A DNA stretch of 64,000 nucleotides from Stigmatella aurantiaca DW4/3-1. Its GTDB lineage: Bacteria > Myxococcota > Myxococcia > Myxococcales > Myxococcaceae. The position numbers and the translations under genes are program-made. Within the stretch, counting starts at the first letter, position 1. The number at the start of each line of letters is the position of its first letter. Positions 2,655-21,494 of this stretch are shown here, in pieces. The DNA lies in NCBI RefSeq assembly GCF_000165485.1, contig NC_014623.1:248001-312000 (forward strand), given 5' to 3'. Under the pieces are notes generated by a model that had not been told where the DNA came from, ran no database searches, and saw only the letters and a list, made by a program, of their open reading frames with translations.

Positions 2655-2686
2655 GGCAACCGGCTCTGGGACTATCCGCAAGGTGC

Positions 2687-5073: not shown

Positions 5074-6998
5074 CATCTTCGATGCTCAAATGCCTGGGCT
5101 GGCGTGAAAAGGCCATCTGGCTGTTGATGCTCACCCTGATGGGGGGCTTTGACGCGAGCGCGGAAGTGCCTCCATCCCCCCAAGCTTGGAGAAAGGATGC
5201 CTCGATCCTTGGCCCCAAGGGAAGGGTGTATGGGTCGGGTGTGGCGGCGTTGGGGTTCTTGCCTGACGGTCAGTTCGTGTCCGCCGTCGCGGATGGGGGT
5301 CGGCTCTTTGCTTGGTCCCTTCGCACGCGACGGCAGGTTTCGTTCACGGATTACGGCTATCTGCATTTTGTATCTGCTGCGCTCTCTGACAATCACAGGC
5401 TGGCCATTGCGCGGGATCTCGATGGGGGTAATTCGATTGACATCTTCGATACCCGCAGCGGCAAGATGATTCATGGATTGACGTGTCCCGCGGATTCGAA
5501 TCTGCGGACGGTGGTCATGTCCCGCGATGGTTCGCGAATTGCCGCGATCGCGGATGAAGGGCCTGTCTGGCTTGGGGATGGCTCCCGGAAGACGCGCATG
5601 CGCGGATTGTCCAAGCCCAAGGGGCGGTGGTTATCGGTGGCGTTGTCAGCGGATGGCGCCCGGGTCGCCGCTGCTGGCGAACAGGGATGGATTCAACTCT
5701 GGGACACACGCAGTGGCCGTCTGCTGAGGACCCTGCGCGGAAATAAACAAGATGTCCAAGACCTCGCCTTGTCCGCGGATGGCCGGTTGCTTCTCGCGGG
5801 AAGCAAGGACGCCACCATTCGGCTTTGGGACACGCGCAATGGAAAACAGGTCTGGGGTGTCGCAGAGGAAGAGGGCCGTTTCCATTCGGTGACACTCTCC
5901 GCCGATGGAACGCGCGCGGTCACCTCCGGCAGCAGCGGTCTGCGGCTGTGGGACATTCCAAAGGAACACGTTCTCGCGCAGACGCCCTATCATCCCGGTC
6001 TCGTGGCCTTGTCGGCGGATGCCCTCTTCATTGCAGCCAGTGGCAATAACGCCCTGTGGTTGATGGATACCCGCAGTGGCCAGCGATTCAGGCTGCCCCT
6101 GGATGGTTACGGGGATGAGATTGAGACCCTTTCGATCAGTCCCGATGGAGGGTACATCGCCGCAGGGAGTTACAGCTCCTCAGTCCGGTTATGGAAAGCG
6201 GGGCAGGATGTTTCTGAAGACCTCGTCTCTGGCCGAGGACAGCCGCCTGTAGCCGTCGGGTTCTCGCAGGATGGGCAGAGGCTGCTCTCCGCGAGCCGGG
6301 ATGGCGTTGTCCGGCTGTGGAACCCCCGCGAGCCGGCATCTGGCCGGATCCTGGTGAAGCTACCGGCGGGCCCGACGGTGCTCGCGACGTCTCCGGCAGG
6401 GCCCTTCGCGGTGCTCTCTGGGAGCGACGGGGTGCTGCGCTTGTGGAACCTGGAGGAGGAGAAAGAGGTGAGGCGGTACGGAGAGGAGGGAGGGGCTGCG
6501 TACTACCCGGTGGTGTTCTCGGCGGATGGAAAGAGGCTGTTCGCGGCCCGGGAAGAGCACGGGGTGGACGTGTGGGAGGTGGAGACGGGCCAGCAGGTGA
6601 AGAGGTTAGAGCCCTCGGGGTATGAGGTGACGAGCTTCGCGGCCAGTGGAGAGGTGGTCGCGGCGGGGACGAGGGATGGCCACATCCAGCTGTGGAAGGC
6701 CCAGACGCTGGAGCCGTTGGTTCGGCTCTCAGGGCACGAGTATGGGATACGGACGGTGTCGCTCAGTGGGGATGGGAAGAGGGTGCTGTCGGTGGGAGAG
6801 GACTCGACGGTGAGGCTGTGGGACGCGAAGACGGGAGCGCAACAAGAGTGCAAGGAGTTCCATATCAGCAATGACTTGCCGATCTCGGCGGTCTTCGAGC
6901 CGGGGGGCCAATCGTTCCTGGTAGGGAACAACGCGGGGGTCATTCACCGCTTCGTGTTTGAGCACTCGTCTCTGGGGGGTGGGGGGCAAGTCAAGTGA
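5070..6998 (+). CDS. Secreted WD40-repeat beta-propeller protein (copy 2)
   Basis: The start ATG at 5070 is in the ATGA overlap with the peptidase relic, with AAGAAAAAG upstream. The 642-aa product starts with a Sec signal peptide (KAIWLLMLTLMGGFDASA, cleavage before EVPPSP) and continues as about 13-14 WD40 blades. The N-terminal two thirds is well diverged from copies 1 and 3, but everything after residue about 390 is almost the same as copy 1 (same C-terminal tail FEHSSLGGGGQVK). Retention of an open frame while the partner peptidase gene decayed suggests the WD40 protein is still used, perhaps working with the intact peptidase of copy 1. Function unknown beyond a binding scaffold. Confidence 0.85.
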   Translation: MTSSMLKCLGWREKAIWLLMLTLMGGFDASAEVPPSPQAWRKDASILGPKGRVYGSGVAALGFLPDGQFVSAVADGGRLFAWSLRTRRQVSFTDYGYLHFVSAALSDNHRLAIARDLDGGNSIDIFDTRSGKMIHGLTCPADSNLRTVVMSRDGSRIAAIADEGPVWLGDGSRKTRMRGLSKPKGRWLSVALSADGARVAAAGEQGWIQLWDTRSGRLLRTLRGNKQDVQDLALSADGRLLLAGSKDATIRLWDTRNGKQVWGVAEEEGRFHSVTLSADGTRAVTSGSSGLRLWDIPKEHVLAQTPYHPGLVALSADALFIAASGNNALWLMDTRSGQRFRLPLDGYGDEIETLSISPDGGYIAAGSYSSSVRLWKAGQDVSEDLVSGRGQPPVAVGFSQDGQRLLSASRDGVVRLWNPREPASGRILVKLPAGPTVLATSPAGPFAVLSGSDGVLRLWNLEEEKEVRRYGEEGGAAYYPVVFSADGKRLFAAREEHGVDVWEVETGQQVKRLEPSGYEVTSFAASGEVVAAGTRDGHIQLWKAQTLEPLVRLSGHEYGIRTVSLSGDGKRVLSVGEDSTVRLWDAKTGAQQECKEFHISNDLPISAVFEPGGQSFLVGNNAGVIHRFVFEHSSLGGGGQVK

Positions 6999-7014
6999 CG
7001 GCCAACTCTTAGAG
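6242..7014 (+). repeat. 773-bp direct repeat, copy B (3' part of WD40 gene 2)
   Basis: Second member of the gapless repeat described at 3841-4613. The third WD40 gene shares the same sequence closely only in part (roughly 9160-9440) and then departs with a different end (FEGQ instead of the Gly-rich tail), so it was not included in the latest homogenisation. Confidence 0.9.
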
Positions 7015-7018
7015 AGAA

Positions 7019-7737
7019 GAGAACAGCGGGATCATGGATCAGGAGACCGCGCTCGTCGTGCGCGCCTGGGTGGAGAAAAAGCTCCACGCATGGTTCAAGG
7101 CCGCGACCGAAATACATCGGCTCGGAGGGTATCTGGGAAAGACCTTCGCCAGCAGCCCTCGTGGGTACAGGGCTGGAAAGCTCTCCCACGTCAAGGGCAA
7201 CAGGCCCTTTAGTTGGCATTACTCGGCCTTAGGAATCGACATTGACCAAGCGGCTACGAGCTGGGACGGTACGATCAACCCCAAGACAGGGGTTCGCTTC
7301 GTGCTGGAGGAAGACGGCCCCAAATTCCGTGTCTGGTGCTATGCCGATCCCCAGCCTCCTGTGCCCCAGGACGCCGCTGACGACAAAAAAATCCGTATCT
7401 CCAATGCCGCAACCGGAACATTGCGACCAAGTCCGAGTCCTCTGGCAAAGTCATCAAGGCCGAGGGGGCCGTGGATACCAGTCCCTTGCTCCACCAGTGT
7501 GGCCCGAAAGCGGACTTCGCCCAGGTGGCCGCGCCCGCTGGATGGTGGCATGATGAATTCCCCCCCCTGCCGCCGCGCTCATGGCCTCTTGGCAGAGAGT
7601 CCAAAGCACTCCCGCTCTATTTTGGTGACTTTCTCCAAGTTTACGGAGTTCACGAGTACAAACTGAGAAACCTCGCTGATGGTTGGTGCGACCATGAGGA
7701 CATCGAGCACGTACTCAAGAGTGAAGTCATGCCATGA
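7019..7737 (+). pseudogene. M15 peptidase relic, copy 3 (N-terminus missing, internal deletions, frameshift)
   Basis: The sequence joins directly to the end of repeat copy B and matches the intact peptidase gene from about 1722. An internal deletion removes about 36 codons after VEKKLH. The first half keeps SWHYSALGIDID, so the first half of the zinc site is present. The frame then shifts at an A7 run (7385-7391; the intact gene has A6 followed by GAC), and the remainder (YLQCRNRNIATKSES.. through to the C-terminus) is read in the next frame to TGA at 7735-7737. A further deletion joins AGW to WHDEFPP, removing about 50 codons and the Glu of the ExxH motif. ATGA overlaps the start of WD40 copy 3. 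Almost certainly non-functional. Confidence 0.8.
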
Positions 7738-9635
7738 TGTTTCCGACGCTCAAGCGCTCAATGCCCTACACGAAATTCGTTGGGTGGATGTTCCTGGCCA
7801 CCGTCCTCGTGGCTTTCGGCGCCAGCGCTGAAGCCTCGCTGCCTTCGCAGGTGCATCTGAAGGAGGTGGCTGTCTTCGGAAAAGTGGGCCGTCTGTACCC
7901 ACGGAGCGTGGAAGCGCTGAGATTTTCGCCCGATGGGCAGTTCGTCTCCGCCATCACGGCAGGTGGAAGCTTTTTCACATGGTCACTCCGCACCCGCCGG
8001 CAGGTTTCGTTCGAGGCTTATGAGACCTCTTTTCCGAGAGCTGCCGCACTCTCCGGCAACCACAGGCTGGCCATGGCACAGGGGCTGGATGGTGGCAATT
8101 GGATCCAAGTTTTTGATACGCGTGACGGCAAGGAACTCCATGGGCTCGAAGGCACCCAAGACTCAGATCTCCGGGCGATCGCGCTCTCGGGAGAGGGTTC
8201 CTTGCTTGCTGCCATCGCGGACAAGGGGCCTCCTTGGCTCTGGGATTTGTCCAGGAAACCTCGTGTCCGCAAGTTGCGAGGTGCCAAGGGCCGCCTGCGG
8301 GTGGTGGCCGTATCGGAGGATGGAACGAGGACGGTGGCGGCGGGAGAGGACGGCTTTGTTTATGTCTGGAACTCACGGACAGGCCGGCTGCTGAAGACGT
8401 TGCGGGGAGGAGAGCGGTCCATCGTCAGCGTCGCCGTGTCAGCGGATGGGCGGTGGGTGCTGGCGGGCAGCGAGGATGCGCAGGCACGGCTCTGGGACTT
8501 GCGGACGGGGAAGCAGGTGTGGAGCATGGAGGAAGAGGCCATTCCTATCGGGGCTGTGGCTCTCTCCGGAGATGGGACCCGGGCGGTGACCTCCGGAAAA
8601 GAGCTCCAGCTGTGGGATCTCCAGCAAGGCAGCGTCCTCGCGGAGTCATCCAGTGGCCCGTCGCCAGTGGTGCTGTCCGCGGACAATGCGTTCATCGCGG
8701 CTGGAGGCTACGATGCGATGTGGTTGATGGACACCCGGAGTGGCCATCGGTTCGAGTTCTCGCTCAATGGCCAAATGGACGCGATTGCAGCCCTCGTCGT
8801 CAGCCCCGATGGAAAGCGCGCTGCCTCGTCCAGTCAGAGCGCCTCGGTTCGTCTGTGGGATATGGCGGGAGGCACTGCGCAAGAGCTTGCCTCGGGCCGT
8901 GAGCAGCCGCCGATGGCCGTCGCGTTCTCGCAGGATGGGCGGAAGTTGCTTTCCGCGAGCCGGGACGGCCTTGTGCGGCTGTGGGACCCCCGCGAGCCGT
9001 CCACCGGCCGGACCCTGGTGAAGCTGCCGCCTGAGCCTACAGTGCTCGTGACATCTCCAGCGGGGCCTTACGCGGTGCTCTCTGGGAGCGACGGGGCGCT
9101 GCGCCTGTGGAACTTGGAAGAAGAGAAGGAGGTGAGGCGGTATGGGGAGGAGGGAGGGCCTGCATACTACCCGGTGGTGTTCTCGGCGGATGGAAAGAGG
9201 CTGTTCGCGGCCCGGGAGGAGCATGGGGTGGACGTGTGGGAAGTGGAGACGGGCCAGCAGGTGAAGAGGTTAGAGCCCTCGGGGTATGAGGTGACGAGCT
9301 TCGCGGCCAGTGGAGAGGTGGTCGCGGCGGGGACGAGGGATGGCCACATCCAGCTGTGGAAGGCCCAGACGCTGGAGCCGCTGTTCCGGCTCTCAGGGCA
9401 CGAGTATGGGATACGGACGGTGTCGCTCAGTGGGGATGGGAAGTGGGTGCTGTCAGTGGGCGAGGACTGGACGGTGAGACTGTGGGACGCGAAGACGGGC
9501 GCGCAACAGGCTGCTCTTGGGCCCCAGAGCAACTACGACTTGCCGGCCTCGGCGGTCTTCGAGCCGGGGGGCCAATCGTTCCTGGTGGGGGACAACGCGG
9601 GGGTCATCCACCGCTTCGTGTTTGAGGGTCAGTAA
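7734..9635 (+). CDS. Secreted WD40-repeat beta-propeller protein (copy 3)
   Basis: The 633-aa product starts at ATG 7734 (ATGA overlap with the peptidase relic); an ATG at 7737 is equally possible. The signal peptide is FVGWMFLATVLVAFGASA with cleavage before EASLPS. The rest consists of about 13-14 WD40 blades. Around 8309-8510 it is nearly identical to copy 1, and around 9160-9440 to both other copies; elsewhere it is diverged, giving a patchwork of identities. The tail ends in FEGQ. A periplasmic or outer-surface scaffold role is inferred from the signal peptide and fold. Confidence 0.85.
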   Translation: MMFPTLKRSMPYTKFVGWMFLATVLVAFGASAEASLPSQVHLKEVAVFGKVGRLYPRSVEALRFSPDGQFVSAITAGGSFFTWSLRTRRQVSFEAYETSFPRAAALSGNHRLAMAQGLDGGNWIQVFDTRDGKELHGLEGTQDSDLRAIALSGEGSLLAAIADKGPPWLWDLSRKPRVRKLRGAKGRLRVVAVSEDGTRTVAAGEDGFVYVWNSRTGRLLKTLRGGERSIVSVAVSADGRWVLAGSEDAQARLWDLRTGKQVWSMEEEAIPIGAVALSGDGTRAVTSGKELQLWDLQQGSVLAESSSGPSPVVLSADNAFIAAGGYDAMWLMDTRSGHRFEFSLNGQMDAIAALVVSPDGKRAASSSQSASVRLWDMAGGTAQELASGREQPPMAVAFSQDGRKLLSASRDGLVRLWDPREPSTGRTLVKLPPEPTVLVTSPAGPYAVLSGSDGALRLWNLEEEKEVRRYGEEGGPAYYPVVFSADGKRLFAAREEHGVDVWEVETGQQVKRLEPSGYEVTSFAASGEVVAAGTRDGHIQLWKAQTLEPLFRLSGHEYGIRTVSLSGDGKWVLSVGEDWTVRLWDAKTGAQQAALGPQSNYDLPASAVFEPGGQSFLVGDNAGVIHRFVFEGQ

Positions 9636-9677
9636 TCTACCGGCCCCTCCGCTCGAACGATGGAGGAGAATTGTCCC

Positions 9678-10319
9678 ATGAATCGGATCGGCGTCATCGG
9701 CGACATTCACTGCGAACATGTGTCGCTCGAGGCCGTGCTTCGCTTTTTTGAGCGGGCGGGCGTCGACCGCATCGTCTCCGTTGGGGACATCTGTGATGGG
9801 CCTGGAGATCTGACCCGGACCGTGGAACTGCTGCGGGGCGCGGGCGTCGAGGCCGTCGCGGGCAACCACGAGCGGTGGTTGCTCAAGGGGGAGATGCGAA
9901 GCCTGCCCGACGCGACCGATCCGGAGTCCCTGCCGCCGCATGTCCGGGCATGGCTTGCCTCATTGCCGCGCACTCGGGAGCTTCACACCCCCGCTGGAGC
10001 CATCCTCGTTTGCCACGGGCTGGGCCTGGACGACATGGCCGAGGTCACCCCGGAGGATCAAGGGTATGCGCTCGAGGTCAATGAGGCCCTGTGGGACCTC
10101 GTCCGCGCGCGGCGCTGGCGCTACGTCCTCAATGGCCACTCCCATCGGCGCATGGTCCGGACCTTCGAGGGGCTGACCGTTATCAATGCAGGCACCCTGC
10201 ACGAAGGCCACGAGCCCTGCTTCGCCCTGATCGACCTCTCTCGGCGAGAGGCCGCCTTCTACGACATCCACGACGACTGGATCGCCGAGCCTCCCCAGGT
10301 GCTTCCGCTGCCTGCCTGA
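9678..10319 (+). CDS. Calcineurin-like metallophosphoesterase
   Basis: The ATG at 9678 has an excellent Shine-Dalgarno (GGAGGAG at 9662-9668), so it is preferred to an upstream ATG at 9660. The 213-aa cytoplasmic product holds all metal-binding motifs of the family: GDIHCEH near the N-terminus, VGDICDG, AGNHERW, VCHGLG and NGHSHRR. It is the size of single-domain YfcE/PrpE-type phosphodiesterases or protein phosphatases; the substrate cannot be told. It follows the WD40 gene by 42 bp on the same strand and may share its transcript, but nothing links them functionally. Confidence 0.9.
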   Translation: MNRIGVIGDIHCEHVSLEAVLRFFERAGVDRIVSVGDICDGPGDLTRTVELLRGAGVEAVAGNHERWLLKGEMRSLPDATDPESLPPHVRAWLASLPRTRELHTPAGAILVCHGLGLDDMAEVTPEDQGYALEVNEALWDLVRARRWRYVLNGHSHRRMVRTFEGLTVINAGTLHEGHEPCFALIDLSRREAAFYDIHDDWIAEPPQVLPLPA

Positions 10320-10338
10320 GCCGCCCGGTGCTCAGGGC

Positions 10339-10944
10339 CTATCCCCTCAGGTTGCCAGCCCCCGGGTTCTTCAGCCGCGTCGAGGACTCGGACTTCAGGT
10401 CCTCCTTGTCCTTGCTCACGGACACAGGCGTTCCGTCCGATGGCCGGAGATCGACGCTCTGGGGCTTGGAGGAGCCCTCGAAGCCATCCTTGGCTCCCCC
10501 CGCGGGGTTGACCTTGGGGCTGGGGGGCGGCGCGGCCTTGGCCGCAGGGGCCTGCGCGGGCGCGCTGCCCGAAAGGGAGCCAATCAGGCCGGGAGGAGGC
10601 GGGGGCGCTCCCTTGGGGAGCTGCATCTGTCCGGTCCAGCCCATGGCCACCGCGCGCTTTTGCAGGAACTCGATGGTTTGCAGGATGGCGGAGGGGGGCG
10701 GCAGGACGGGCTCCTTCATGAACCGCTCGAAGGCCGCCTTGGCATCCTCGTAGAGCTGCAGGTCCATGGGGACGTTCGGCTTCGTGTGCACCACCACCTC
10801 GTGCAGCTTGCGCAGCACGGCCTGGGCGGCACCCGTGGCGGCCCGGGCCTGCTTCTCCAACTCGAGCAGCAGCACCTCCCGTTCCGCGACCAGCTCCGGG
10901 GGCTCGGTGGGAAGCGAGGCACTGGGGGGATTCGACTGGGACAT
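10339..10944 (-). CDS. Hypothetical proline-rich cytoplasmic protein
   Basis: 201 residues starting at ATG 10944, with GAGGA 8 nt upstream. The first 100 residues look folded and helical (an acidic helix ELVAEREVLLLELEKQAR, then YEDAKAAFERFMKEP), followed by a Pro/Ala linker (GAPPPPPG, AKAAPPPSPK) and a charged Ser/Lys-rich tail. No signal peptide, membrane segment or recognised domain. It is convergent with the metallophosphoesterase gene, 19 bp apart. I do not recognise the family. Confidence 0.65.
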   Translation of the reverse strand: MSQSNPPSASLPTEPPELVAEREVLLLELEKQARAATGAAQAVLRKLHEVVVHTKPNVPMDLQLYEDAKAAFERFMKEPVLPPPSAILQTIEFLQKRAVAMGWTGQMQLPKGAPPPPPGLIGSLSGSAPAQAPAAKAAPPPSPKVNPAGGAKDGFEGSSKPQSVDLRPSDGTPVSVSKDKEDLKSESSTRLKNPGAGNLRG

Positions 10945-11167
10945 GGGTGCATCCTCTGCGCGGGGGGCGTGATGCCGTCTTCGGCGCGGGCACTCAAGGT
11001 ATCAGGACATGAAGGCGTGTGGCCACGTGGATGGCGCGTGTTTCGCCCAGCGCCATGGCGGACTGTAACGGGGGAGCGCACCCACAGGGGAGCATTGGCT
11101 CCAGGGGGAGCCTGTCCTGTGCCATCTTTTCTTCCGATGCGAGATGCGCTGCCCTTAAGATCTGACG

Positions 11168-11827
11168 GTGTCTTCTGCGCCTGGCCCACTCCCACTCACT
11201 CCCTTTGCGCTCACTCCCAAGTACGACGATGTGTCGACGGAGGAGATGAGGGGGCTGATTTCCACGGTTGACGTGCTCGTGCTCACGACAACAGAGGTCG
11301 AGCGGCAGGCACTATACGAGGTGATGCGCCCCCTGCCTGGACGAACAGGTCTTGTAGAGGGTGCTCTCGATCACATCACCTACCGTTTGGGACAATTGGG
11401 CCGGTACTTCGTTGCTCACACCGAAAGCACGATGGGCAGTCAGGCACGGCATGCCTCGGCCCTCACTGTCAGTGCCGCCATCTCCGAACTCAAACCCAAA
11501 GCTGTCATCGTTGTAGGGATTGCCTTTGGGCTCAAGCCAGCGAAGCAGCAACTCGGTGACGTCATTGTCGCCGAGTCGATCATGCCGTACGAGCTTCAGC
11601 GGGTTAACAAAGATTCGAAACCAACCTACCGGGGACAGCCCATTTCTTGCGGCAGTATCCTCTCAGAGCGTTTTCGCAACCGGTCCACGGACTGGAGGCT
11701 GCTGCGGCACGCGGATGCAGTGAAGGTCTTTCAAGGAGAATTGCTCTCTGGTGAGAAGCTCGCGGACAACAGCTCGTTTAGAGATACGCTGGTAGAAGCC
11801 TTTCCCAATTCACATGTTCCTGGCTGA
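11168..11827 (+). pseudogene. Nucleoside-phosphorylase-domain protein, C-terminally truncated
   Basis: A GTG-started frame encodes the PNP/UDP-phosphorylase fold as used in many conflict-system effectors: VLVLTTTEVERQAL at the start, the MGSQARHAS loop, AVIVVGIAFGLKPAKQQLGD, and LLSGEKLADNSSFRDTL. Families with these motifs normally go on directly to a GGEMEG-type nucleoside-binding segment and an Asp-containing tail; here the protein stops after FPNSHVPG, just before that point. The end overlaps the next gene by 14 bp, and I read this as a deletion junction that removed the C-terminal third. GC content is lower than in the neighbours, in keeping with transfer. It may be inactive, or a short variant. 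Confidence 0.6.
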
Positions 11828-12476
11828 ATCAGGAATCCGCGAGGCCAATGCCACCATTGCGCTCGTCGGCTGCGCCATGGTGCAGTATCCGAAGAAGATC
11901 GAGCTCCAAATGGAGCAGCTGCAGAAGGATCTCCTGCATGATCGTTATTTCCCCCGCGAGGAGAAGCAGCGGCTTAAGGCGCAGGGATTTTTTTTAGGAG
12001 TGGATCACGCCATGACGCGTAGCCGGATGTTGGAGTTCCTCAGCGTCGCGGACTTCGACTTCTTCGTCTTCTACATCGAGAAAACCTTGTGGAGTGGTCG
12101 AGAGGACGAGCTCCGCACGGAGCTTTTGAGACACCTCCTGCGAGACCGCCTCCCGTCGCCTCGTTGGCCTATCGAAACAATTTGTGGGGACGTTGAAAAA
12201 TTGTATTCGCGGCTGTCGGCTGTTGGCGCTGGCCTGCGGGCGGAGGGTTGGAAGGAAGAGCAGTTACCGGTTGTCTTGGCTCCGAAGAAAGCATGGGACT
12301 TCAATCTGCTCGTAGTGCAATACGCGAGCGATATCGTTCGAACGCGCTTGGAGCAGATCATGGCTGGTCCTCCTTTCCCCCCTCAGCCGTACGTCGATCA
12401 CTTTCGCACCAAGCTCCGGATGGTCGAGCACATGGAGACTGGCAAGCGCTTCCATCGAAAGTGCCCACTCCCGTGA
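11814..12476 (+). CDS. DUF3800-like protein
   Basis: The 220-aa product begins MFLAESGIREANATIALVG, matching the N-terminal (D/A)ESG strand of the DUF3800 family (RNase H-like fold, often in phage-defence and mobile regions), then FFLGVDHAMTRSRMLEFLS and DFFVFYIEKTLW where the second and third conserved elements sit. The conserved Asp of DESG is Ala here, so catalysis is doubtful. It starts inside the end of the truncated phosphorylase-domain gene in another frame, with no clear ribosome-binding site of its own. Assignment rests on pattern memory, without an alignment. Confidence 0.5.
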   Translation: MFLAESGIREANATIALVGCAMVQYPKKIELQMEQLQKDLLHDRYFPREEKQRLKAQGFFLGVDHAMTRSRMLEFLSVADFDFFVFYIEKTLWSGREDELRTELLRHLLRDRLPSPRWPIETICGDVEKLYSRLSAVGAGLRAEGWKEEQLPVVLAPKKAWDFNLLVVQYASDIVRTRLEQIMAGPPFPPQPYVDHFRTKLRMVEHMETGKRFHRKCPLP

Positions 12477-12705
12477 GTGTCACGAAGGCTCGTTGCACGA
12501 GTCCACTCGACTTGGTCCCCGCCTTCTTGAAGCGAGCACGCTCCAAGTGGGCGAGTTGCTTGCGGTAGTTATCTTGGACGTGCGTATCGACCGTGAGTTC
12601 ACGCGCGAACTCGTCAGCCGCCCTCTCAACGAGCACGAACAAGGCTGATGCATCGAGTTCGATCTCCCCGCGCGTTGACGGTGTAGACGATGGAAAGAAC
12701 GTGGA

Positions 12706-13419
12706 ATGAACTTCCGAACTTGCAGTGCACTCCGCCAAGCCGTTGCCGTTGCCGTTGCCGTTGCTGGATGCGCCACCTCTCAAGAGGTGCCTGAGCCCTA
12801 CGCTTGGGCTCCTGTGCGCCCACCTGCTGTGCCTGGCACGGGCCTCCCCACCCGCGGACAGCCAGGGCGGGTTCGCCCTCAGCCCCTGCCACGGAGCCCG
12901 CATAAGCGCGTCTTGCCGCCCACCCGGGAGCCGGGCCTTTGGGCTGGAGACACTTCTCAGGACTCGCAGGAGCCGGAGGCGAACCCCACACCGGAGAGAT
13001 CCAGCGAGAACAGGAGGGACCCGCCTGCCCCGGTGACGACGGAGCGCCGCCGCTCAGAGTGCGAGCCCACCCCAGTGCCGCACGCGGGCGAAGATCCCCC
13101 GCATAACGAGTGCGCCGATAAATTTCCGCCGAACCGCTACCCCGGCAAGGACGTGCTCGTTGGCGGCAAGCGCTTTGATGCGCTGCAAGTCGGCGTGCGC
13201 GTGCTGTGGGAGATCAAGACCCATCGATTTGACATGTACCCTGACTTCATCCGGCGGCAGACAATCCTGGAGCAACTGCCGTTGCTGCGGGAAGAGCGGG
13301 ACATTGCGGACGCATGTGGCTATGGATTCGTCGTTGGGGTGAGCACCCAGGAGCACAAAGACGCGCTGAGCGACCTGGAGCCCACCCTCCATATTGTCGT
13401 TACTGGGTGCAAGCGATGA
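12706..13419 (+). CDS. DUF6310-domain lipoprotein, putative nuclease-type toxin
   Basis: A 237-aa protein with a lipoprotein signal (lipobox AVAGC at residues 18-22), a Pro/Arg-rich variable linker of about 90 residues, and a conserved C-terminal domain of about 110 residues: CEPTPVPHAGEDPPHNECAD, RYPGKDVLVGGKRFDALQVG, VLWEIKTHRFD, YGFVVGVSTQEHKDAL. This domain matches my knowledge of DUF6310, which is abundant in myxobacteria. The FDAL..WEIKT arrangement resembles a PD-(D/E)xK nuclease core (D, then ExK). The stop overlaps the next start (ATGA at 13416). A polymorphic toxin displayed through a lipid anchor, with the downstream gene as immunity, is an inference. Confidence 0.7.
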   Translation: MNFRTCSALRQAVAVAVAVAGCATSQEVPEPYAWAPVRPPAVPGTGLPTRGQPGRVRPQPLPRSPHKRVLPPTREPGLWAGDTSQDSQEPEANPTPERSSENRRDPPAPVTTERRRSECEPTPVPHAGEDPPHNECADKFPPNRYPGKDVLVGGKRFDALQVGVRVLWEIKTHRFDMYPDFIRRQTILEQLPLLREERDIADACGYGFVVGVSTQEHKDALSDLEPTLHIVVTGCKR

Positions 13420-14174
13420 CCAAGCGGAGAACCCTCATCCATACCGTCTACGCGCCTGCGCTTGTGGGCGACGACGGTCGCACGCTCGCAGTCGTCCACG
13501 GAATCGAACAGGCGCTCCCCGGTGTGCGCTTGGAGTGGAAGCTGTCAGAGGCGGGGCAGCCTATCGCATTGCCGCAACGTGATGGGTGGCTCGCTGAGGC
13601 GGCTGCGCGTGGTGAGTTCCCACTGGTGTGCAACGGCGACGAGAGTTACCCGGTGACGGTTTTTGGGTTGCGGACATCCGGGCGTCAAGCGCCGGGCGGC
13701 CAGCCGTTGCTCGACGTCCATGCAGAACTGCCACTAGACGCGGCCAGCATCGCGGCGGCGGCGGATCTGCTGGAAGGCGTGGCGGATGGCTCACGCGCGT
13801 TCTGGGGGCGCGTGTTGCCGAACGGAGTGGCGTCGGAGGTGGCGAAGCAGTTTCGCCACTCGATGGATCAGACGCATGTTCCGCCCCGGGGGCTCCCAGC
13901 GCTCAACCTTCCCAAGCACCTCCGATCGCCTGAGATCCCCCATTATCTCGGGTGGCTGAACTACTGGTCGGCAACCACCGCACAGACCCTTGGGTTCCCT
14001 GACCCAGCCCGAGACGCAGAGCTCCTCGCTCGGGCGCGGCGCACCGGGAGGGACGGGTGGATCGTTCGGCTTACAGATACGCCGCTCGATCTCGACAACC
14101 CCTCGCACCTGGATGCGCTCTTGCGCGCGTATGAGCGCTTCCCGGAGATTGGCGGGCGCGTGCCTCCGCACTGA
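13416..14174 (+). CDS. DUF5953-family protein, candidate immunity partner
   Basis: 252 residues, starting at the ATGA overlap with the DUF6310 gene, hence translationally coupled. The cytoplasmic product (YAPALVGDDGRTLAVVHGIE, LPNGVASEVAKQFRHSMD, PEIPHYLGWLNYWSATTA) fits the DUF5953 family that recurs next to DUF6310 genes in myxobacteria, as far as I recall. No catalytic motif is evident. Pairing, coupling and absence of a signal peptide fit a cognate immunity protein, which is an inference. Its 3' end is 27 bp from the end of the convergent reverse-transcriptase relic. Confidence 0.65.
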   Translation: MTKRRTLIHTVYAPALVGDDGRTLAVVHGIEQALPGVRLEWKLSEAGQPIALPQRDGWLAEAAARGEFPLVCNGDESYPVTVFGLRTSGRQAPGGQPLLDVHAELPLDAASIAAAADLLEGVADGSRAFWGRVLPNGVASEVAKQFRHSMDQTHVPPRGLPALNLPKHLRSPEIPHYLGWLNYWSATTAQTLGFPDPARDAELLARARRTGRDGWIVRLTDTPLDLDNPSHLDALLRAYERFPEIGGRVPPH

Positions 14175-14200
14175 GTCACCGGACCCGGGCTGGCGCTGTT

Positions 14201-14629
14201 GAACGCGCGCAGGAGTTCTTCGGAGGGCACTTCGTCCCCAGACAAGGTAATGTCATCGGCATAGCGCGTAATCGATTCGAAGAAGTGCTTGATGTCAGCG
14301 TGGAGCAGCAACGGCTTCCCCAGGTGCTGGCGGGCATTTGTCACGATCGAACGTTTCTTGACGAAGCCCTGAACATACGTGGGAAAGCTCACTGCTCCGG
14401 ATACGGCATCTGCCAGGGTCTTGTGCATCCGTAGCAGTACAGCAGCCTTGGCTCGGTAGACGATTCGATATCCCTGTCGCCTGCGTTTCGGGATCCGCAG
14501 CTCGTTGTAGAACTCGCGCTGGCGGCTCGTGTCCGCGAAGGTGTTGAGGTCGTCGGCCGTGCACTCCAGGGCTTGGGCGAGATCGCTTGAGTGGCGGATG
14601 GAGCGAAAAGGAAAGGCCATGCTGGTCAT
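14201..14629 (-). pseudogene. Retron-type reverse transcriptase relic with in-frame internal deletion
   Basis: Read from ATG 14629 (GAGG upstream), the product shows the N-terminal RT motifs of retron-like enzymes (RRRQGYRIVYRAKAAVLLRM, YVQGFVKKRSIVTNARQHLG, LLLHADIKHFFESI), then jumps directly to TRYADDITLSGDE. In a whole enzyme about 80 residues, including the G-x-PTS palm segment, separate the DxxxFF motif from the YADD motif, so the join at about 14270 is an in-frame deletion. After EELLRAFNS at 14201 the frame continues only as antisense of the DUF5953 gene, so thumb and template-binding parts are lost. Inactive RT relic; no msr-msd structure could be confirmed upstream. Confidence 0.75.
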
Positions 14630-14784
14630 TGCGCCTCACCTGATACAGAAGAAAGGCGGGCCACGAGAGATAGGTGATATCTCGTACCCGAAGAAGGGGT
14701 GCGAACTCGCGCCCCCGAGAAGATCTCGTCGAGGTTTATCCCTTGTGGCCCAACTGCCAGCGGCACTCGAAGGCGCCATTCCCG

Positions 14785-15045
14785 TCAAGTGGGGTGAGCC
14801 ACAGCTGAAGTGTCGCGGGACTGCGCCACACGCGCCATGCGTTGCTGGGCGTCTGTTGCTGCTTCCTGGGGAGAGGCAGAGCCTTCGAAGGCGGTCTCGC
14901 GTACGATTTGTTCTCCGACCGAGCCTCGGCGCATCCACTCCGGCCAGTTTTCCATCTTCCGGCGGTTGCGCTCCAAAGACTCCCGGAACTGCGTCTTCTC
15001 GTCGGTCCGTTTTAGATCCAATGAGGTCAGCGTCTCCTGTGTCAC
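14785..15045 (-). CDS. Small hypothetical protein (86 aa)
   Basis: A GTG at 15045 preceded by GGAGG (6-nt spacing) opens a frame for a hydrophilic helical protein, VTQETLTSLDLKRTDEKTQF followed by RESLERNRRKMENWPEWMRR. The -RENWPEWMRR- type motif occurs in small proteins next to toxin-antitoxin and regulator genes, but I cannot assign a family. Upstream on the same strand of the RT relic by 155 bp, so it may be part of the same accessory insert. Confidence 0.5.
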   Translation of the reverse strand: MTQETLTSLDLKRTDEKTQFRESLERNRRKMENWPEWMRRGSVGEQIVRETAFEGSASPQEAATDAQQRMARVAQSRDTSAVAHPT

Positions 15046-15166
15046 GAGGGTCCTCCGGGTTCCCAGGCGCATTCACGTGGAAGAGGCCATCGGGGCTTCC
15101 ACACCCAACGTCCTGGGTAGGATGGCCCCTTCCATGCGGCGCTGTCAAACCGGAGGAAGAGCCCTG

Positions 15167-16318
15167 CTACCGTGCCGGGGCCTGGACGTGGATGAGTTCG
15201 GGCGTCTTCGCGGGGGGGCGCCCCACTTCCTGCTCCGGGGTGGGTCGCCGCTTTCGCTCGATGGGCTCCAGCTTCACGGGCTTGCCCGTGCGTGCCGACT
15301 CGTACAGCGCCGACACGATGCGCACGTCCGCCAGCCCCTCCCAACCATCGGGCTCCGGGTCCTTGCCCTGGAGGATGCAGTCGCTGAAGGTGACGAGCTC
15401 CGCGGCCAGCTGATCTCGCGAAGGCGCCTTGCCCCGGCGGGTCTTCCCCCGGCTCTTCAGCGTCCAGTGGATGGGCCCCTTCGCCTCGTAGGCGTTCTCC
15501 AGGTGCAGCTCGCCTTGCGTCCCCACCAGCCGGTAGGTGGCCACCGCCTCCGCCCCGAAGCTCACGTTGAAGGCCGCCAGCTTTCCTTCCGGAAAGCGCA
15601 TCACCACCGAGGCCGCTTCCTCCGTCTCCGTGAAGCGCGCATCCCCGCTCCGGTCGTAGAAGGCGAACACCTCCACTGGCTCGGCCCGGAACAGGTAGCG
15701 CGCCGCGTTCACGCAGTACACGCCAATGTCCCACAGCACCCCGCCGCCCTTGTCCGCCTCGGCGCGGATGTTGGGCGTCTTCAACTGGAAGCAGAACGTG
15801 GAGCTGAAGAGGCGCGGTTCGCCCAGCTTGCCCTCCCGCACCGCCTTCACCGCCTGGAGGTTCGCCTTCTCGAAGTGCAGCCGGTACGCCGTCATCAGCC
15901 GGACATCGCTCTCCTCGCAGGCGCCAATCATCTCCCGGCACTCCGCCTCCGTGGTGGCCAGGGGCTTCTCGCACAGCACGTGGGCGCCCGCGCGCGCCGC
16001 GCGCACCGCGTACTCGGCATGCATCGTGTTGGGCAGGACGATGTAGACCGCCTCCACCTCTGGCAGCGCCAGGCACTCCTCGAACTGCTCGTAGCCGAAG
16101 ACGGGCACCCCGTGCTTCTTGCCCAGCACGCGCGCCTTCTTGGCATCGCCGCTCACCAGGGCCACCAGCCGCGAGTTGCCGCGCGCGTGTGCGAAAGCCG
16201 GCAACACCGATTCCTGCGCGAAGTGGCCCAGCCCCACCACCGCGTAGCCCACCTGCCGCTTTGCCTTCGCGCCCGTCCGCCGCCGTGTGCCCTGCTTGCC
16301 ACGCTGCCGTTGTGCCAT
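15167..16318 (-). CDS. Gfo/Idh/MocA-family NAD(P)-dependent oxidoreductase
   Basis: 383 residues starting at ATG 16318 with GGAGG seven bases upstream. After a basic N-terminus of about 20 residues comes the Rossmann motif YAVVGLGHFAQESVLPAF, then the family signature AGAHVLCEKPLATT (EKP with the catalytic-region Lys) and the GGGVLWDIGVYCVNAARYLF helix of the C-terminal alpha/beta domain, as in glucose-fructose oxidoreductase. Probably oxidises or epimerises a sugar or sugar derivative; substrate unknown. Cytoplasmic as no signal peptide is seen. Monocistronic, 168 bp downstream of the lipoprotein gene. Confidence 0.9.
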   Translation of the reverse strand: MAQRQRGKQGTRRRTGAKAKRQVGYAVVGLGHFAQESVLPAFAHARGNSRLVALVSGDAKKARVLGKKHGVPVFGYEQFEECLALPEVEAVYIVLPNTMHAEYAVRAARAGAHVLCEKPLATTEAECREMIGACEESDVRLMTAYRLHFEKANLQAVKAVREGKLGEPRLFSSTFCFQLKTPNIRAEADKGGGVLWDIGVYCVNAARYLFRAEPVEVFAFYDRSGDARFTETEEAASVVMRFPEGKLAAFNVSFGAEAVATYRLVGTQGELHLENAYEAKGPIHWTLKSRGKTRRGKAPSRDQLAAELVTFSDCILQGKDPEPDGWEGLADVRIVSALYESARTGKPVKLEPIERKRRPTPEQEVGRPPAKTPELIHVQAPAR

Positions 16319-17150: not shown

Positions 17151-18041
17151 TCAGCGCTTGCGCCGCAGCACCATCAGCGCGTACTGAAGCCCGCCATCGA
17201 GCAGCCCTTGCTGAAGCCGCAGGTGCTCGCGCTGGGAGACCGAGCGCGGGATGATGCCGGGGCGCCGCGGGGTCTGGGCCTCCTGTTCGCGTGCGAGCAG
17301 GTCCATGGTCAAGGTCCAGAAGTTCACCGTGCGGTAGGCCAGGTCTTGGTAGAGCTCGAGCTCCAGCCCCGCCAGGCTCGCCGCCCGGAGGTACTCGTCC
17401 GTGGTGCCAATCCGCGTGTGCCAGTACCGGTTGAAGGGAGAGGCCAGCTCCGGGCGCCCGAGGAAGCAGTCCACGAGCAGCAGCGTGCCGCCGGGCCGCA
17501 ACAGCCGGTGCACGTGGTGGAACCAGGCCTGGCGGGGCAGGTAGCACGAGCTCTCCACCGCCACCACGCGGTCGAAGTAGTCCCGGCCTGGCACCTCCAG
17601 GGCGTCGCACAGCAGCACCCGCACCCGGTCCGTGGCCCCCACCTGGGCCGCGAAGCGCTGAATCCACGGCACGTGCGAGGGCACGATGGTGACGGCCGTC
17701 ATCTGGGCCCGGTGCTCGGTGGCCCAGTACAGCGAGCTGCCGCCCAGCCCACAGCCCACGTCCATCACCCGCTTGCCGGCCCAGGACTCGCCCACCGCGT
17801 AGGACATCTCGCGCAGCAGCACCTCCTGGGCATCGTGGATGCGCACCCGCAGCGCCTGCTCCGTCATCCCCGGCGGGGGCATGTCGTCCACCAGCCCCGT
17901 GTGGTAGTGCACCCGGGGGCCGGGGCCGTAGCGGCGCAGGATGCTCTCCGTCTTGGCGTCGTAATACGAGGAGACCTCCTCGGACGGCTCGCGCCCCCCG
18001 GTGGCTGGACTGACGAGCGCGAGCGCTGGCTTGACGTTCAT
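17151..18041 (-). CDS. SAM-dependent class I methyltransferase
   Basis: 296 residues beginning at ATG 18041, in an ATGA overlap with the preceding prenyl-synthase-like gene. Motif I VMDVGCGLGGSSLYWA, VVAVESSCYLP (motif II/III area) and LLRPGGTLLLVDCFLGRP (post-motif) are those of sterol/quinone-type C- or O-methyltransferases (UbiE/ERG6-like fold). The N-terminal YYDAKTESILRRYGPGPRVHYH is the usual lead-in for that group. Last gene of a four-gene overlapping operon with a histidine kinase and an isoprenoid-type enzyme; methylation of an isoprenoid or prenylated product is an inference from that context. Confidence 0.85.
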   Translation of the reverse strand: MNVKPALALVSPATGGREPSEEVSSYYDAKTESILRRYGPGPRVHYHTGLVDDMPPPGMTEQALRVRIHDAQEVLLREMSYAVGESWAGKRVMDVGCGLGGSSLYWATEHRAQMTAVTIVPSHVPWIQRFAAQVGATDRVRVLLCDALEVPGRDYFDRVVAVESSCYLPRQAWFHHVHRLLRPGGTLLLVDCFLGRPELASPFNRYWHTRIGTTDEYLRAASLAGLELELYQDLAYRTVNFWTLTMDLLAREQEAQTPRRPGIIPRSVSQREHLRLQQGLLDGGLQYALMVLRRKR

Positions 18042-18766
18042 GGCACGACCTCCTGAAGAATGGGTTCAATGCGCCGCAGCGCCGAGTCCAGGCACCGCAG
18101 CCCCTGTGCCCGCACCCGCTCCACCGCGGCTTGCGCCCAGCGCATCACCTGGCGCTGATCCATCTCGGACATGCTGAAGAAGCGCAGGTCCCGGCTGCGG
18201 ATGTCCTCGGCCACGTGGGCGGCGATGCCCAGCCCGTAGCCCACCGTGGACTGGGCCTCCAGCCGCGTCCCCGCCCACAGCAGGTGCAGGTACGCGGCCC
18301 ACTGCTGCCCGGCGAGCCCCTCGGCCACCTGCTGGAAGAGCGGCGCCGTCCACTGGCGCGTGCGCACCTCCAGCGCCTGGGGCCCCGCGGCCATGGCCAG
18401 CCCCCGCGCGGCCTCCGCCATCACCCGCTCGGACAGCTCGGACTGCGCCAGGGTGGCCCAGGCCAGGTTCTGCAACAGGAACTGCACATAGGGGCCCACC
18501 CGCGCGGGCTCCTCGTAGTAGGTGCAGTCCCCATCGCACAGATCATCGGCGAGGTTGCCCGCGGCGAAGCCCAGGAAGATGCCCACCGCGCGCGGCAGCA
18601 GCAGCTCGCGCCGCAGGCCCGCCTCCGTGCCCGCCTCGTACAGCAGCACCAGCGGCCCCGGCTGCGCGGCCTCCAGGGCCATCACCACGTCCCGCTCGGC
18701 CGCCGCGGGCAGCGACTGGCGCCGCAGCGTGCGCAGCGTCTCCTGGTAGATGACGCCGGCGCTCAT
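18038..18766 (-). CDS. Polyprenyl-synthase-like (class I isoprenoid fold, ComQ-like) protein
   Basis: 242 residues from ATG 18766, which overlaps the kinase stop (ATGA). The sequence holds two Asp-rich motifs in the right order: AGNLADDLCDGDCTYYE (DDxxD) after the first third and GIAAHVAEDIRSRDLRF near residue 175, where E-D-I-x3-D stands for the second DDxxD. Spacing and the GIA.x.. lead-in are like trans-isoprenyl synthases, and especially short ComQ-type peptide isoprenyl transferases. The protein is shorter than housekeeping FPP/GGPP synthases (about 290-350 aa). The second motif is not canonical, so it might transfer rather than elongate a prenyl chain. Coupled to a membrane kinase and a methyltransferase. 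Confidence 0.65.
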   Translation of the reverse strand: MSAGVIYQETLRTLRRQSLPAAAERDVVMALEAAQPGPLVLLYEAGTEAGLRRELLLPRAVGIFLGFAAGNLADDLCDGDCTYYEEPARVGPYVQFLLQNLAWATLAQSELSERVMAEAARGLAMAAGPQALEVRTRQWTAPLFQQVAEGLAGQQWAAYLHLLWAGTRLEAQSTVGYGLGIAAHVAEDIRSRDLRFFSMSEMDQRQVMRWAQAAVERVRAQGLRCLDSALRRIEPILQEVVP

Positions 18767-20109
18767 CGCTGGAACTCCTGGGGCAGCAGCACGCGCAGCA
18801 CCGAGCCCCCGGACTGCGCGTTCTGCCACTCCAGCAGGCCCCCGCTGGAGCGGATGAGGCACTCGCTGGTGTACAGCCCCTGTCCGGCACCGGGGGGCTT
18901 GTGGCCTGGGGCAGGCTCCTGGAGCTGCTCCGGCGAAATCCCCGGCCCATCATCCGAGATGATCATCTCGAGCCTCCCACTGTAGGTTTCAGTCCGGGCG
19001 GTGATGTGCACCCGCCGGGCGGCGCGCGAGCCCTCGCGCTCGCACGCGCAGGTGACGAGGTTCTCCACCACGCGCCGCAGCGTGGTGGTGCCGCCGCGCA
19101 CCAGGGCCCGCAGGGGCTCGGTGCGGTTCACGTCCACTTGGATGTCCACGTCCGGGTAGCGCACGACCAGGCTCTGGCGGACCGAATCCAGCACGGACAC
19201 CAGGTCCACGGCCTCCGGGTCGCTGCCCATGACGCGGCGGCTCTTCTGGCGCATGTCCGCCACGCGCTCGCGCAGCGCGGTGAGCTGCTCCTGGAGTTGG
19301 CGCACGAGGGACTCGTACTCCGTGCGGCCCGTCTGGCCCCGGGGACCGCCCATCACCCGGAGCATGTCCGCGGCGGCCCCCGCCGACAGCAGCCCGGTGT
19401 GCAACTCCTGGGTGTGGTGGAGCACCTCGGTGAGCGCCTGGGACAGCCGGCCCACGTCGCGCTCCTGGTGCTCCAGCATCTGGGCCTGGACGGCGCCGTG
19501 CAGCCGCTCCGCCTCGGCGCGGATCCGGTCGTGGCGCACGCTGAAGGTGCCCAGGTACAGCTCGGCCAGCAGGGCCGATGGGCCCATGACGGCGAAGAGG
19601 GCCAGGTGCTCCCGGGTGCTGGCGAAGGTGGCCGCCAACCCCAGCGCCAGCGCCGTGCCCACGGCGAGAAACGGGGTGTGGAGGGTGACGCGGAACAGCT
19701 GGCCGTGGAAGGCGGCGGTGAACAGCAGCAGGCCGCCGAAGGCGGTGGCGCCCTTCAAGGCCGACAGCGCCATCAGGCCCGCCAGGAAGAACTGGAGGCC
19801 CGTGGTGCCCACGAGCGCCAGCACCCACCCCCACGTCTGGATGACCCGGCGGCGGCGGTGCAGCAAGGCGAAACCGAAGTCCACCAGCGCCGGCAGGAAG
19901 CACAGCAGCGCGTTGCCCAGGGGCAGCGCGAAGAGTGCGTCCGAGCCGGGCGCCCAGTGGATGGCCGTGAGCATCACCCCCACGAGGGCCAGGAGCACCA
20001 GCCAGGAGCTCACGCTGCTGGCCTCCAGCACCTCGGCGGGGTGCTGCTCCCGGACCCAGCGTTGAAAGGCCGCCTGGACGGTGGCGCGCATGGAAGCCAG
20101 GAGGCTCAT
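18763..20109 (-). CDS. Membrane sensor histidine kinase with polytopic N-terminus
   Basis: 448 residues from ATG 20109 (ATGA overlap with the 99-aa gene). The first 200 residues hold about six hydrophobic segments (WLVLLALVGVMLTAIHW, ALLCFLPALVDFGFALL, WVLALVGTTGLQFFLAGLMA and more), with no extracytoplasmic domain of note. A coiled coil (IRAEAERLHGAVQAQMLEHQ) leads to a poorly conserved dimerisation segment with LTEVLHHTQELH, then an ATPase domain with N box VVENLVTCACE, G1 DDGPGIS and G2 GAGQGLYTSECLIRSSGG. The dimerisation helix is not a textbook HisKA box, so which His is phosphorylated is uncertain. No response regulator lies next to it. Confidence 0.85.
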   Translation of the reverse strand: MSLLASMRATVQAAFQRWVREQHPAEVLEASSVSSWLVLLALVGVMLTAIHWAPGSDALFALPLGNALLCFLPALVDFGFALLHRRRRVIQTWGWVLALVGTTGLQFFLAGLMALSALKGATAFGGLLLFTAAFHGQLFRVTLHTPFLAVGTALALGLAATFASTREHLALFAVMGPSALLAELYLGTFSVRHDRIRAEAERLHGAVQAQMLEHQERDVGRLSQALTEVLHHTQELHTGLLSAGAAADMLRVMGGPRGQTGRTEYESLVRQLQEQLTALRERVADMRQKSRRVMGSDPEAVDLVSVLDSVRQSLVVRYPDVDIQVDVNRTEPLRALVRGGTTTLRRVVENLVTCACEREGSRAARRVHITARTETYSGRLEMIISDDGPGISPEQLQEPAPGHKPPGAGQGLYTSECLIRSSGGLLEWQNAQSGGSVLRVLLPQEFQR

Positions 20110-20405
20110 ACGGCGGTGACGATCAAGCCCGGGGGCAGTGCCCTGCTCTCTTCGAGGACCCGCTCCGCGAGGGCGTTGAGCTCCTCGACGAGGGTGGCCT
20201 GGCCGGAGCGCACGATGCGCACCTCCACCTCGCCGCCCGCGAGCACGTGGTGCAGCGCCTCCAGCACCGGATGGATGTGAGGGCTGAACGCCAGGGTCTC
20301 CCCGGAGCCTTCGAGGGCGCCCAGCGCCTGCACCCGCTGGAGGTACGTTCCCACCGAGGGGGTGAATGACATTGGAACGACGAGGTCTTTTTGACCGTTG
20401 CTCAT
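20106..20405 (-). CDS. Small hypothetical protein, first gene of the kinase/prenyl operon
   Basis: 99 residues from ATG 20405 with AAGGGA upstream; stop overlaps the kinase start. No Cys or Trp, no signal peptide and no membrane segment; a mixed alpha/beta pattern (GGEVEVRIVRSGQATLVEEL, NALAERVLEESRALPPG) suggests a small globular regulatory protein. I do not recognise the family. Tight coupling with the kinase implies joint function, for example as a cytoplasmic regulator. Confidence 0.6.
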   Translation of the reverse strand: MSNGQKDLVVPMSFTPSVGTYLQRVQALGALEGSGETLAFSPHIHPVLEALHHVLAGGEVEVRIVRSGQATLVEELNALAERVLEESRALPPGLIVTAV

Positions 20406-20798: not shown

Positions 20799-21494
20799 TC
20801 AGCGCAGCTCCAACGCCTCGGTCAGGCGCAGCGCCCGGGCTTTGCGGGCGCGCTTGCGGCTCAGCTCCACCCCCACCGCGTCCAGCCCCAGGGCGTTGGC
20901 CACCGCCAGCACCGTGCCGTGCCCGCAGAAGGGGTCCACCACCGTCCGGGTGGGGGTGTGCTCCTGGATGAAGCGGCATGCGGCCAGACAGGCCCGCACG
21001 CCCATGCCCCGCGTCCACGTCACCTCGCCCGCCTCGGGCAGCACGTCCGCCGTCGCCTTGCTCAGCGCCAGCCGCACGCCCCGGGAGAAACCCAGCAGGT
21101 GGGAGTACGCGGGCCGTCCGAACGTCACCGTTCCGGGTGGCCGCCGGCACACCACCTTGTGAAAGAGCGTCTCCTGCCCGGCCTCCTCCGCCGCCCGGCT
21201 CACCAGGTAGCCTTTGTCCACCCACGTCCCCTCGTGCTTCACGTCCGTCTGGTAGAAGAGGGCCACCCCCTCGGGGGGCACCTTCGCCATCACCAGCGCC
21301 GCGGCGCGGATGAACCACTGCTTCCACTCCGCCAGCGAGAGCGCGGGAAACTCGGACAGGTCCGGCAGTGACGTGATGACCGAGCAGCCCTCCAGCACGC
21401 CCCGGCCCGACAGCCACGCCACCGCCTCCGCGCACTCCACCGTCCGGCGTCCCGGGGGGGGGGGTGTATTTTCTGCCTCGCCGTGCTCCGCCAC
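20799..21494 (-). CDS. DNA-methylase-like SAM-dependent methyltransferase (circularly permuted motif order), with G11 tract near start
   Basis: 231 residues if started at GTG 21494. An N-terminal SVITSLPDLSEFP looks like the catalytic (T/N)(S/P)PP-type motif IV of N4/N6 methylases (here TSLPD), and the SAM motif VVDPFCGHGTVLAVANALG with VGVELSRKRARKA comes at the C-terminal end, giving the order IV then I as in beta-class amino-methyltransferases. It could methylate DNA, RNA or another target. An 11-base C run (G11 at 21454-21464 on the plus strand) sits about ten codons after this start; an alternative GTG beyond the run exists but has no clear ribosome-binding site. So the start is unsettled. 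Confidence 0.65.
   Translation of the reverse strand: MAEHGEAENTPPPPGRRTVECAEAVAWLSGRGVLEGCSVITSLPDLSEFPALSLAEWKQWFIRAAALVMAKVPPEGVALFYQTDVKHEGTWVDKGYLVSRAAEEAGQETLFHKVVCRRPPGTVTFGRPAYSHLLGFSRGVRLALSKATADVLPEAGEVTWTRGMGVRACLAACRFIQEHTPTRTVVDPFCGHGTVLAVANALGLDAVGVELSRKRARKARALRLTEALELR

Follow-up and report, generated by a model that had tools for sequence, protein, structure and literature searches.

Gene content of the locus

We analyzed a stretch of 64,000 nucleotides from Stigmatella aurantiaca DW4/3-1 (contig NC_014623.1, positions 248,001 to 312,000), hereafter the window, which harbors an operon of four genes at window positions 17151-20405 on the minus strand. In operon order, these genes encode a small protein (SMALL), a kinase-like protein (HK), a protein with the predicted fold of isoprenyl-diphosphate synthases (IPPS; the protein is called TPS here as a short label, with no claim of terpene synthase activity) and a methyltransferase (MT):

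20106-20405, minus strand: SMALL, 99 amino acids (aa), the first gene of the operon; fold not recognized, steady neighbor of the 242-aa gene
18763-20109, minus strand: HK, 448-aa membrane kinase-like protein (pseudokinase) with hydrophobic segments, an HATPase_c domain and Gln in place of the phosphoacceptor His
18038-18766, minus strand: TPS, 242-aa protein of predicted IPPS fold with DDxxD at residues 74-78 and with D188, D193 and R195, lacking the residues of the isopentenyl diphosphate (IPP) site
17151-18041, minus strand: MT, 296-aa S-adenosylmethionine (SAM)-dependent methyltransferase, apparently of the C6-prenyl-diphosphate type, with Glu163 as the putative catalytic residue and Phe203 in the tail pocket

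The original prediction, made from the sequence alone, described four overlapping open reading frames (ORFs), and the minus strand indeed carries ORFs of 99, 448, 242 and 296 aa, all of them open, with ATGA at each of the three junctions (20109-20106, 18766-18763 and 18041-18038). The two peptides LADDLCDGD and AEDIRSRD both lie within the 242-aa protein, as had been stated, while the range proposed at that time (18038-20405) misses the methyltransferase gene at 17151-18041. The products of genes overlapping in this manner would be made in fixed proportion. Among the loci compared here, the overlap of TPS and MT is clear in L001-L004 and possible in L017 and two Citreicoccus loci; in other loci with both genes a short gap separates the two matches, apart from fusions in two genera. 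The groups of genomes carry codes (Archangium g8, Citreicoccus g17, Hyalangium in g1, Myxococcus and Pyxidicoccus g23), and the names Stigmatella-like and Corallococcus-like (g26) are those we assume for such code groups.

Chance ORFs are excluded by conservation: of 195 Myxococcota genomes, 50 (from 11 of 90 genera) have the TPS gene, and most of these 50 also preserve the operon order. The G+C content at third codon positions is 0.87-0.95 across the genes (the 242-aa gene being scored on its 274-aa ORF), and the Met-Ser start of TPS is common to its relatives. Pairwise ratios of non-synonymous to synonymous substitution rates (dN/dS) reach up to about 0.46 for all four genes (a single pair in the case of SMALL) and are 0.08-0.38 for TPS and MT. 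Among the papers listed by our searches of the open PubMed Central (PMC) literature, none dealt with this operon in its title or abstract.

MT resembles C6-prenyl-diphosphate methyltransferases

Pfam and NCBIfam assign MT to the SAM methyltransferases in general; it scores below the cut-off of every NCBIfam model, GPPMT_Stmyces being among the best (4.2e-11, 43 bits versus 400). The best matches among solved structures are BezA, a geranyl diphosphate (GPP) C6-methyltransferase (PDB 7fbh/7fbo; 7.6e-51, 43% identity over the aligned part), and the C6-methyltransferase of farnesyl diphosphate (FPP) from Streptomyces varsoviensis, C6-FPP-MT (9TB4; 2.3e-48, 37%). The next PDB match is MitM (2.5e-17), and the GPP C2-methyltransferase matches at 1.5e-12 only, versus 7.6e-51 for the C6 type. 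The N-terminal YY..KT and GPGPRxH motifs of BezA and 9TB4 are common to MT.

According to the description of 9TB4 (PMC12929941), Glu165 is the base, Phe243 and Trp244 lie at C6=C7, Tyr37 and Phe45 at the head group and residues 29-37 at the diphosphate, and the tail is lined by His194, which anchors the C10=C11 bond, Ile205, Tyr209 and Thr211. MT keeps the catalytic Glu as Glu163 (Glu165 of 9TB4, Glu170 of BezA), the aromatic residues Phe241 and Trp242 at the C6=C7 bond and Tyr38 and Tyr46 at the head group (the latter being Phe in 9TB4 and Tyr in BezA), and the Lys-Thr of positions 29-30. In the tail pocket, Cys192 replaces His194, Phe203 replaces Ile205 and Trp207 replaces Tyr209, and Thr209 corresponds to Thr211. 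The FPP-specific His194 is absent, Cys192 standing there; at the His194 and Ile205 positions BezA has Val and Trp, so that MT, with Cys and Phe, is nearer to BezA than to the FPP enzyme. A review (PMC10881772) states that the W210A variant of BezA takes FPP; this Trp of BezA corresponds to Ile in the FPP enzyme and to Phe in the MT of the window.

Judged by family and residues, MT very probably methylates a small terpene building block, and the tail pocket points to GPP as the more likely substrate. Unlike BezA and C6-FPP-MT, with which it shares the Glu and the aromatic residues, MT has the tail pocket Cys192, Phe203 and Trp207, and its partner is an IPPS-fold protein unmatched in Pfam, not a recognized terpene synthase. 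The operons for 2-methylisoborneol, which combine a GPP C2-methyltransferase with a terpene cyclase, likewise have a prenyl-diphosphate methyltransferase adjoining an isoprenoid enzyme, but MT is nearer to the C6 type and its partner matches no family model.

Two other assignments were considered and dropped. Stigmolone, the Stigmatella pheromone, is not a plausible product: its carbon skeleton would not be derivable from methyl-GPP, and a literature search was empty. A role in anti-phage defence would rest on the sole PADLOC match, in which mad2 hits the methyltransferase domain of MT and which we take as generic.

TPS has the predicted fold of prenyl-diphosphate synthases

No Pfam or NCBIfam model matches TPS, and a Pfam search with 25 members gave no isoprenoid family. 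No PDB sequence matched it, searching the PDB with a profile made from the TPS alignment gave nothing better than E 0.23, and hhalign against the five prenyl synthases of the same genome gave E 4e-4 at a probability of just 35%. The AlphaFold2 model, built from 25 relatives, has a mean pLDDT of 94.7; the best 50 of its 59 Foldseek matches (E <= 0.001) are prenyl-diphosphate synthases or their subunits, FPP synthases included, and VIA-align superimposes it on a member of the isoprenoid synthase family with Z 23.4 and an rmsd of 2.6 over 232 residues. Structure prediction thus upholds the isoprenyl-synthase-like fold that had been proposed, and these fold matches rule out an unrelated helical bundle. 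Structural matches also include the mint GPP synthase heterotetramer and the rice complex of the recruiting protein for geranylgeranyl diphosphate synthase, both of which include non-catalytic subunits.

Residues of TPS were compared in a sequence alignment with the five PF00348 enzymes of the same genome. Each aspartate of DDxxD (residues 74-78 in the window) is kept in 24 of 25 aligned TPS rows, Asp188 of the second motif and Gly180 in all 25, and DDxxD is found in 48 of the 50 TPS loci, the two exceptions being Citreicoccus-like. Missing from TPS are KT and GK, the Gln of FQ, both basic residues (Lys and Arg) of GK..RP and the Arg that follows DDxxD; at the columns binding IPP or diphosphate the window protein has gaps or the residues Q, G, Y, L and A. 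TPS thus shares the predicted fold and the metal motif of prenyl-diphosphate synthases but, with the IPP-binding residues lost, is probably not a chain elongator. It shares the fold, DDxxD and the position of the second Asp with the trans-isoprenyl diphosphate synthases (PF00348, FPP/GPP synthase), and differs from them in its length of 242 aa, in having no GK..RP, post-DDxxD Arg, KT or GK, and in matching no Pfam model. The small prenyltransferases of the MoeN5 type are alike in fold (Z 21.1, rank 40) and in small size, but they were not retrieved by sequence in the PDB searches with TPS.

HK, its receivers and SMALL

The hydrophobic segments of HK lie within residues 25-189 and HATPase_c at 342-444 (2.2e-11). 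Gln replaces the phosphoacceptor His of the H box; the first Asn of the N box and G1 are kept, Cys stands for the second Asn of the N box, GQGL forms the G2 box, and the ATP motifs of the L003 and L004 kinase-like proteins deviate more than those of HK. As read from its sequence, HK has no residue to phosphorylate. We found no relative of the response regulators of this family at 13-27 kb of the window and no Response_reg domain among the scanned neighbors.

The H-box His is kept in all ten loci with a receiver gene (L027-L033, L137, L039 and L040). Among the receiver-free loci it is kept in 29 of 54 and lost in 25 (13 of 38 with TPS, 12 of 16 without); these loci are related by descent and the counts are descriptive. 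They omit L117-L119, duplicates of L006, L007 and L014 or L012. The search for receivers covered the upstream DNA of all 38 receiver-free TPS loci; for the 16 Corallococcus-like genomes it covered wide loci in 6 and short flanks only in 10. On a tree of 54 kinase-like proteins the His must have changed four times or more; the tree comes from a quick search, has long branches (L036 with L037) and includes 6 of the 16 Corallococcus-like proteins.

In L137, L039 and L040 the receivers keep the phosphorylatable Asp and the kinases keep the His. The receivers of the Archangium-type genomes and genome G009 have Ala for the phospho-accepting Asp in seven of seven cases, with the His of the adjoining kinase intact. 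These Ala-bearing, Archangium-type single-domain receivers are:

L033:7225-7593
L031:4909-5274
L041:12484-12831
L042:12395-12751
L043:7655-8026
L032:2569-2934
L180:3527-3892

As the deep relatives keep both His and regulator, the phosphorelay seems to have been lost stepwise from a two-component ancestor, the receiver first. The kinase-like protein is still under selection, because dN/dS of its gene is 0.29-0.46 over seven pairs. For the ATP-binding part the ratio is 0.28-0.52 in four Stigmatella-like pairs versus 0.14-0.22 in three sister-group pairs, and the pair nearest to the window (G000-G005) has 0.28, indicating little relaxation.

SMALL is a constant companion of TPS: it was found in all 47 loci holding both the kinase-like gene and TPS, with that of L039 assigned from its position and a weak likeness (16% identity). 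It contains no Trp or Cys, and neither residue is conserved in the 26 aligned rows. Its structural model has a pLDDT of 76.7 and no Foldseek match below 0.001.

Distribution, gene order and linked fate of TPS and MT

MT is present, at E 1e-25 or better, in 55 of 195 Myxococcota genomes; 39 genomes have both TPS and MT, and the two genes are neighbors in all 39. In L036 (523 aa) and L044, which belong to two genera, they are fused in one reading frame. Fusions suggested by long open frames in L011, L012 and L014 were rejected, as the two matches lie in different frames. The kinase-like gene directly adjoins TPS in 46 of the 50 genomes and lies in the same cluster in one more (L044); it was not found at E 1e-30 in two Citreicoccus-like genomes, and the contig of L038 is cut.

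In the six Archangium-type genomes and G009 (g4) the order is peroxidase-like gene, receiver, SMALL, HK, TPS. It is receiver, SMALL, HK, TPS, MT in L137, the same without MT in L039, and SMALL, HK, TPS, receiver in L040. In L132-L134 SMALL is followed by TPS with no HK detected (L133 shows only 41 upstream bases). Deep members match weakly (the kinase-like genes of L039 and L040 at E 0.001 and 1.6e-6 with the window query), and the TPS of L040 was matched at 4e-12 by a profile built without it.

In the 16 Corallococcus-like genomes (L109-L114 and L152-L161) HK adjoins an altered MT, TPS is missing and no SMALL turned up at the locus. In all 16 of these MT-only genomes K29 and T30 of MT are changed to L and A, residue 45 to C or G and residue 205 to S or T. 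The two Citreicoccus-like genomes combine a TPS without DDxxD with a deletion in the tail pocket of MT and have no SMALL at the locus. The MT pocket is therefore altered wherever TPS is lost or broken, in 18 of 18 cases (16 of 16 without TPS, two of two without DDxxD). Among the MT sequences next to an intact TPS, that of L036 carries Arg in place of K29 and Phe in place of Y37.

A scan of contigs with two peptide patterns retrieved 24 loci, of which 20 come from records under myxobacterial names and two from metagenome-assembled genomes of Deltaproteobacteria. The records named Comamonas sp. (L119, BNCN01000009.1) and Klebsiella pneumoniae (L134, CAMBFS010000003.1) contain one locus each; both copies resemble myxobacterial genes, and the Comamonas label looks wrong.

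Proposed function and alternatives

In our judgment there is an even chance that the operon makes a C6-methylated (homo)terpenoid, with the pseudokinase as a membrane partner. MT would take the methyl group from SAM and place it on C6 of a short prenyl diphosphate, with GPP as the likeliest substrate, to give a C11 allylic diphosphate, a step for which its family and residues argue strongly. TPS would then bind this C11 diphosphate via Mg2+ on DDxxD and D188/D193, and we infer that it would ionize the diphosphate, either cyclizing it or handing it to another acceptor; since the IPP site is lost, it would cyclize or transfer and not extend the chain. HK would descend from a true sensor kinase once paired with a single-domain response regulator and TPS, and its most probable present role is to anchor the enzymes to the membrane or to regulate them without phosphorylation. 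In a more detailed proposal, a Myxococcota family of small IPPS-fold enzymes cyclizes or transfers a C11 C6-methylated prenyl diphosphate, and a pseudokinase, evolved on about four occasions through loss of the regulator and then of the phosphoacceptor, keeps it at the membrane; this is offered tentatively and is less likely than not.

Several observations weigh against the biosynthetic interpretation. The prediction of GPP leans on few positions, and Trp207 of MT resembles neither reference. TPS has lost most diphosphate- and IPP-binding residues and may be non-catalytic. Six of six Archangium-type genomes and G009 hold TPS with no MT genome-wide at E 1e-25, hence a methylated substrate is not a general requirement of TPS. 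The MT of L137 has Gly and that of L132 has Asp at the catalytic Glu despite an intact TPS motif, and more than half of the kinase-like proteins without a near receiver (the 29 of 54 noted above) retain the His.

One alternative is that TPS is a non-catalytic binding protein that reports the level of GPP, FPP or a terpenoid to HK, MT having been recruited later, a possibility that we regard as real but rather doubtful. It would account for the close linkage of TPS to the kinase-like gene (directly adjacent in 46 of 50 genomes, within one cluster in another), deep lineages without MT included, for the addition of a receiver with Asp in L137, L039 and L040, for the missing basic residues at the IPP and diphosphate sites, and for the mint and rice complexes among the structural matches; however, DDxxD is retained in 48 of 50 TPS loci, TPS and MT are fused in two genera, and in L132-L134 SMALL is followed by TPS with no kinase-like gene between them (with only 41 upstream bases seen in L133). 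The original prediction invoked the ComQ-ComP logic, in which an isoprenoid or prenylated signal is sensed by a membrane kinase and relayed by phosphorylation. As in ComQXPA, an IPPS-fold protein, a small protein and a membrane kinase-like protein share one operon here, with a receiver in deep relatives, and the His is intact in L137, L039 and L040, together with the receiver Asp, and in 29 of 54 receiver-free loci. The window departs from ComQXPA in that HK has no His, SMALL has neither Cys nor Trp, TPS has no IPP site and a methyltransferase is present. ComX is prenylated on Trp, and a copy of the ComQ/ComX peptide prenylation in the window was rejected on the grounds of the absent His, near family receiver, Cys/Trp of SMALL and IPP-site residues. 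With Gln as the phosphoacceptor residue, Cys for the N-box Asn, GQGL as the G2 box, seven Archangium/G009 receivers carrying Ala for Asp and no conserved Cys or Trp in SMALL, such signalling is improbable, and the idea better fits the deep relatives L137, L039 and L040, as far as kinase His and receiver Asp tell. The suggestion that the system makes, decorates and senses an isoprenoid is therefore retained in part: making and decorating are likely, given the IPPS fold and the C6-type MT, while sensing by a working kinase fails in the window, where Gln stands for the His, part of the ATP motifs is gone and no family receiver lies at 13-27 kb.

It is equally unlikely that the operon is a decaying remnant, being lost in Myxococcaceae and having little function in S. 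aurantiaca. The Corallococcus-like genomes without TPS or a detected SMALL, the Citreicoccus-like genomes without the kinase-like gene, SMALL at the locus or DDxxD, and the higher dN/dS of the ATP-binding part of HK in the Stigmatella-like pairs (0.28-0.52, versus 0.14-0.22 in the sister group) are consistent with decay; the four open ORFs of the window, the dN/dS of 0.08-0.38 for TPS and MT and of 0.29-0.46 for the whole HK, the intact MT pocket and the little relaxed nearest pair G000-G005 (0.28) speak against it.

Genomic context

Many Myxococcaceae loci have a DNA-methylase-like gene (N6_N4_Mtase; 20799-21494 in the window) upstream of the operon, which looks like conserved synteny. G+C content is 61-64% at 1-16000 and 60001-64000 of the window versus about 68-72% elsewhere in it, and the low-G+C DNA adjoining the operon was possibly acquired; a DUF6310 gene lies at 12706-13419 and a weak reverse-transcriptase-like match, below cut-off, at 13961-14629. 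In the Citreicoccus-like loci (L034:7150-8673 and L035:11943-13463) an FAD monooxygenase precedes the DDxxD-less TPS and the pocket-deleted MT. A gene resembling the C-terminal domain of DyP-type peroxidases, which may encode a tailoring enzyme, adjoins the operon in several genera (found by Pfam in L033 and L044 and by TBLASTN in the others):

L033:6263-7228
L044:4018-4917
L115:5442-6266
L148:793-1569
L169:634-1431

Significance

TPS represents an unannotated branch of the isoprenoid synthase fold, with no Pfam or NCBIfam model, that is kept in Myxococcus, Pyxidicoccus, Archangium, Hyalangium and their kin, and for which a C11 methylated compound is a likely substrate. The loci offer a natural series for following the apparent stepwise dismantling of a two-component phosphorelay tied to a metabolic protein. 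If the more detailed proposal above is true, a two-component system that once sensed or controlled an IPPS-fold enzyme would have been turned from a signalling system into an enzyme scaffold.

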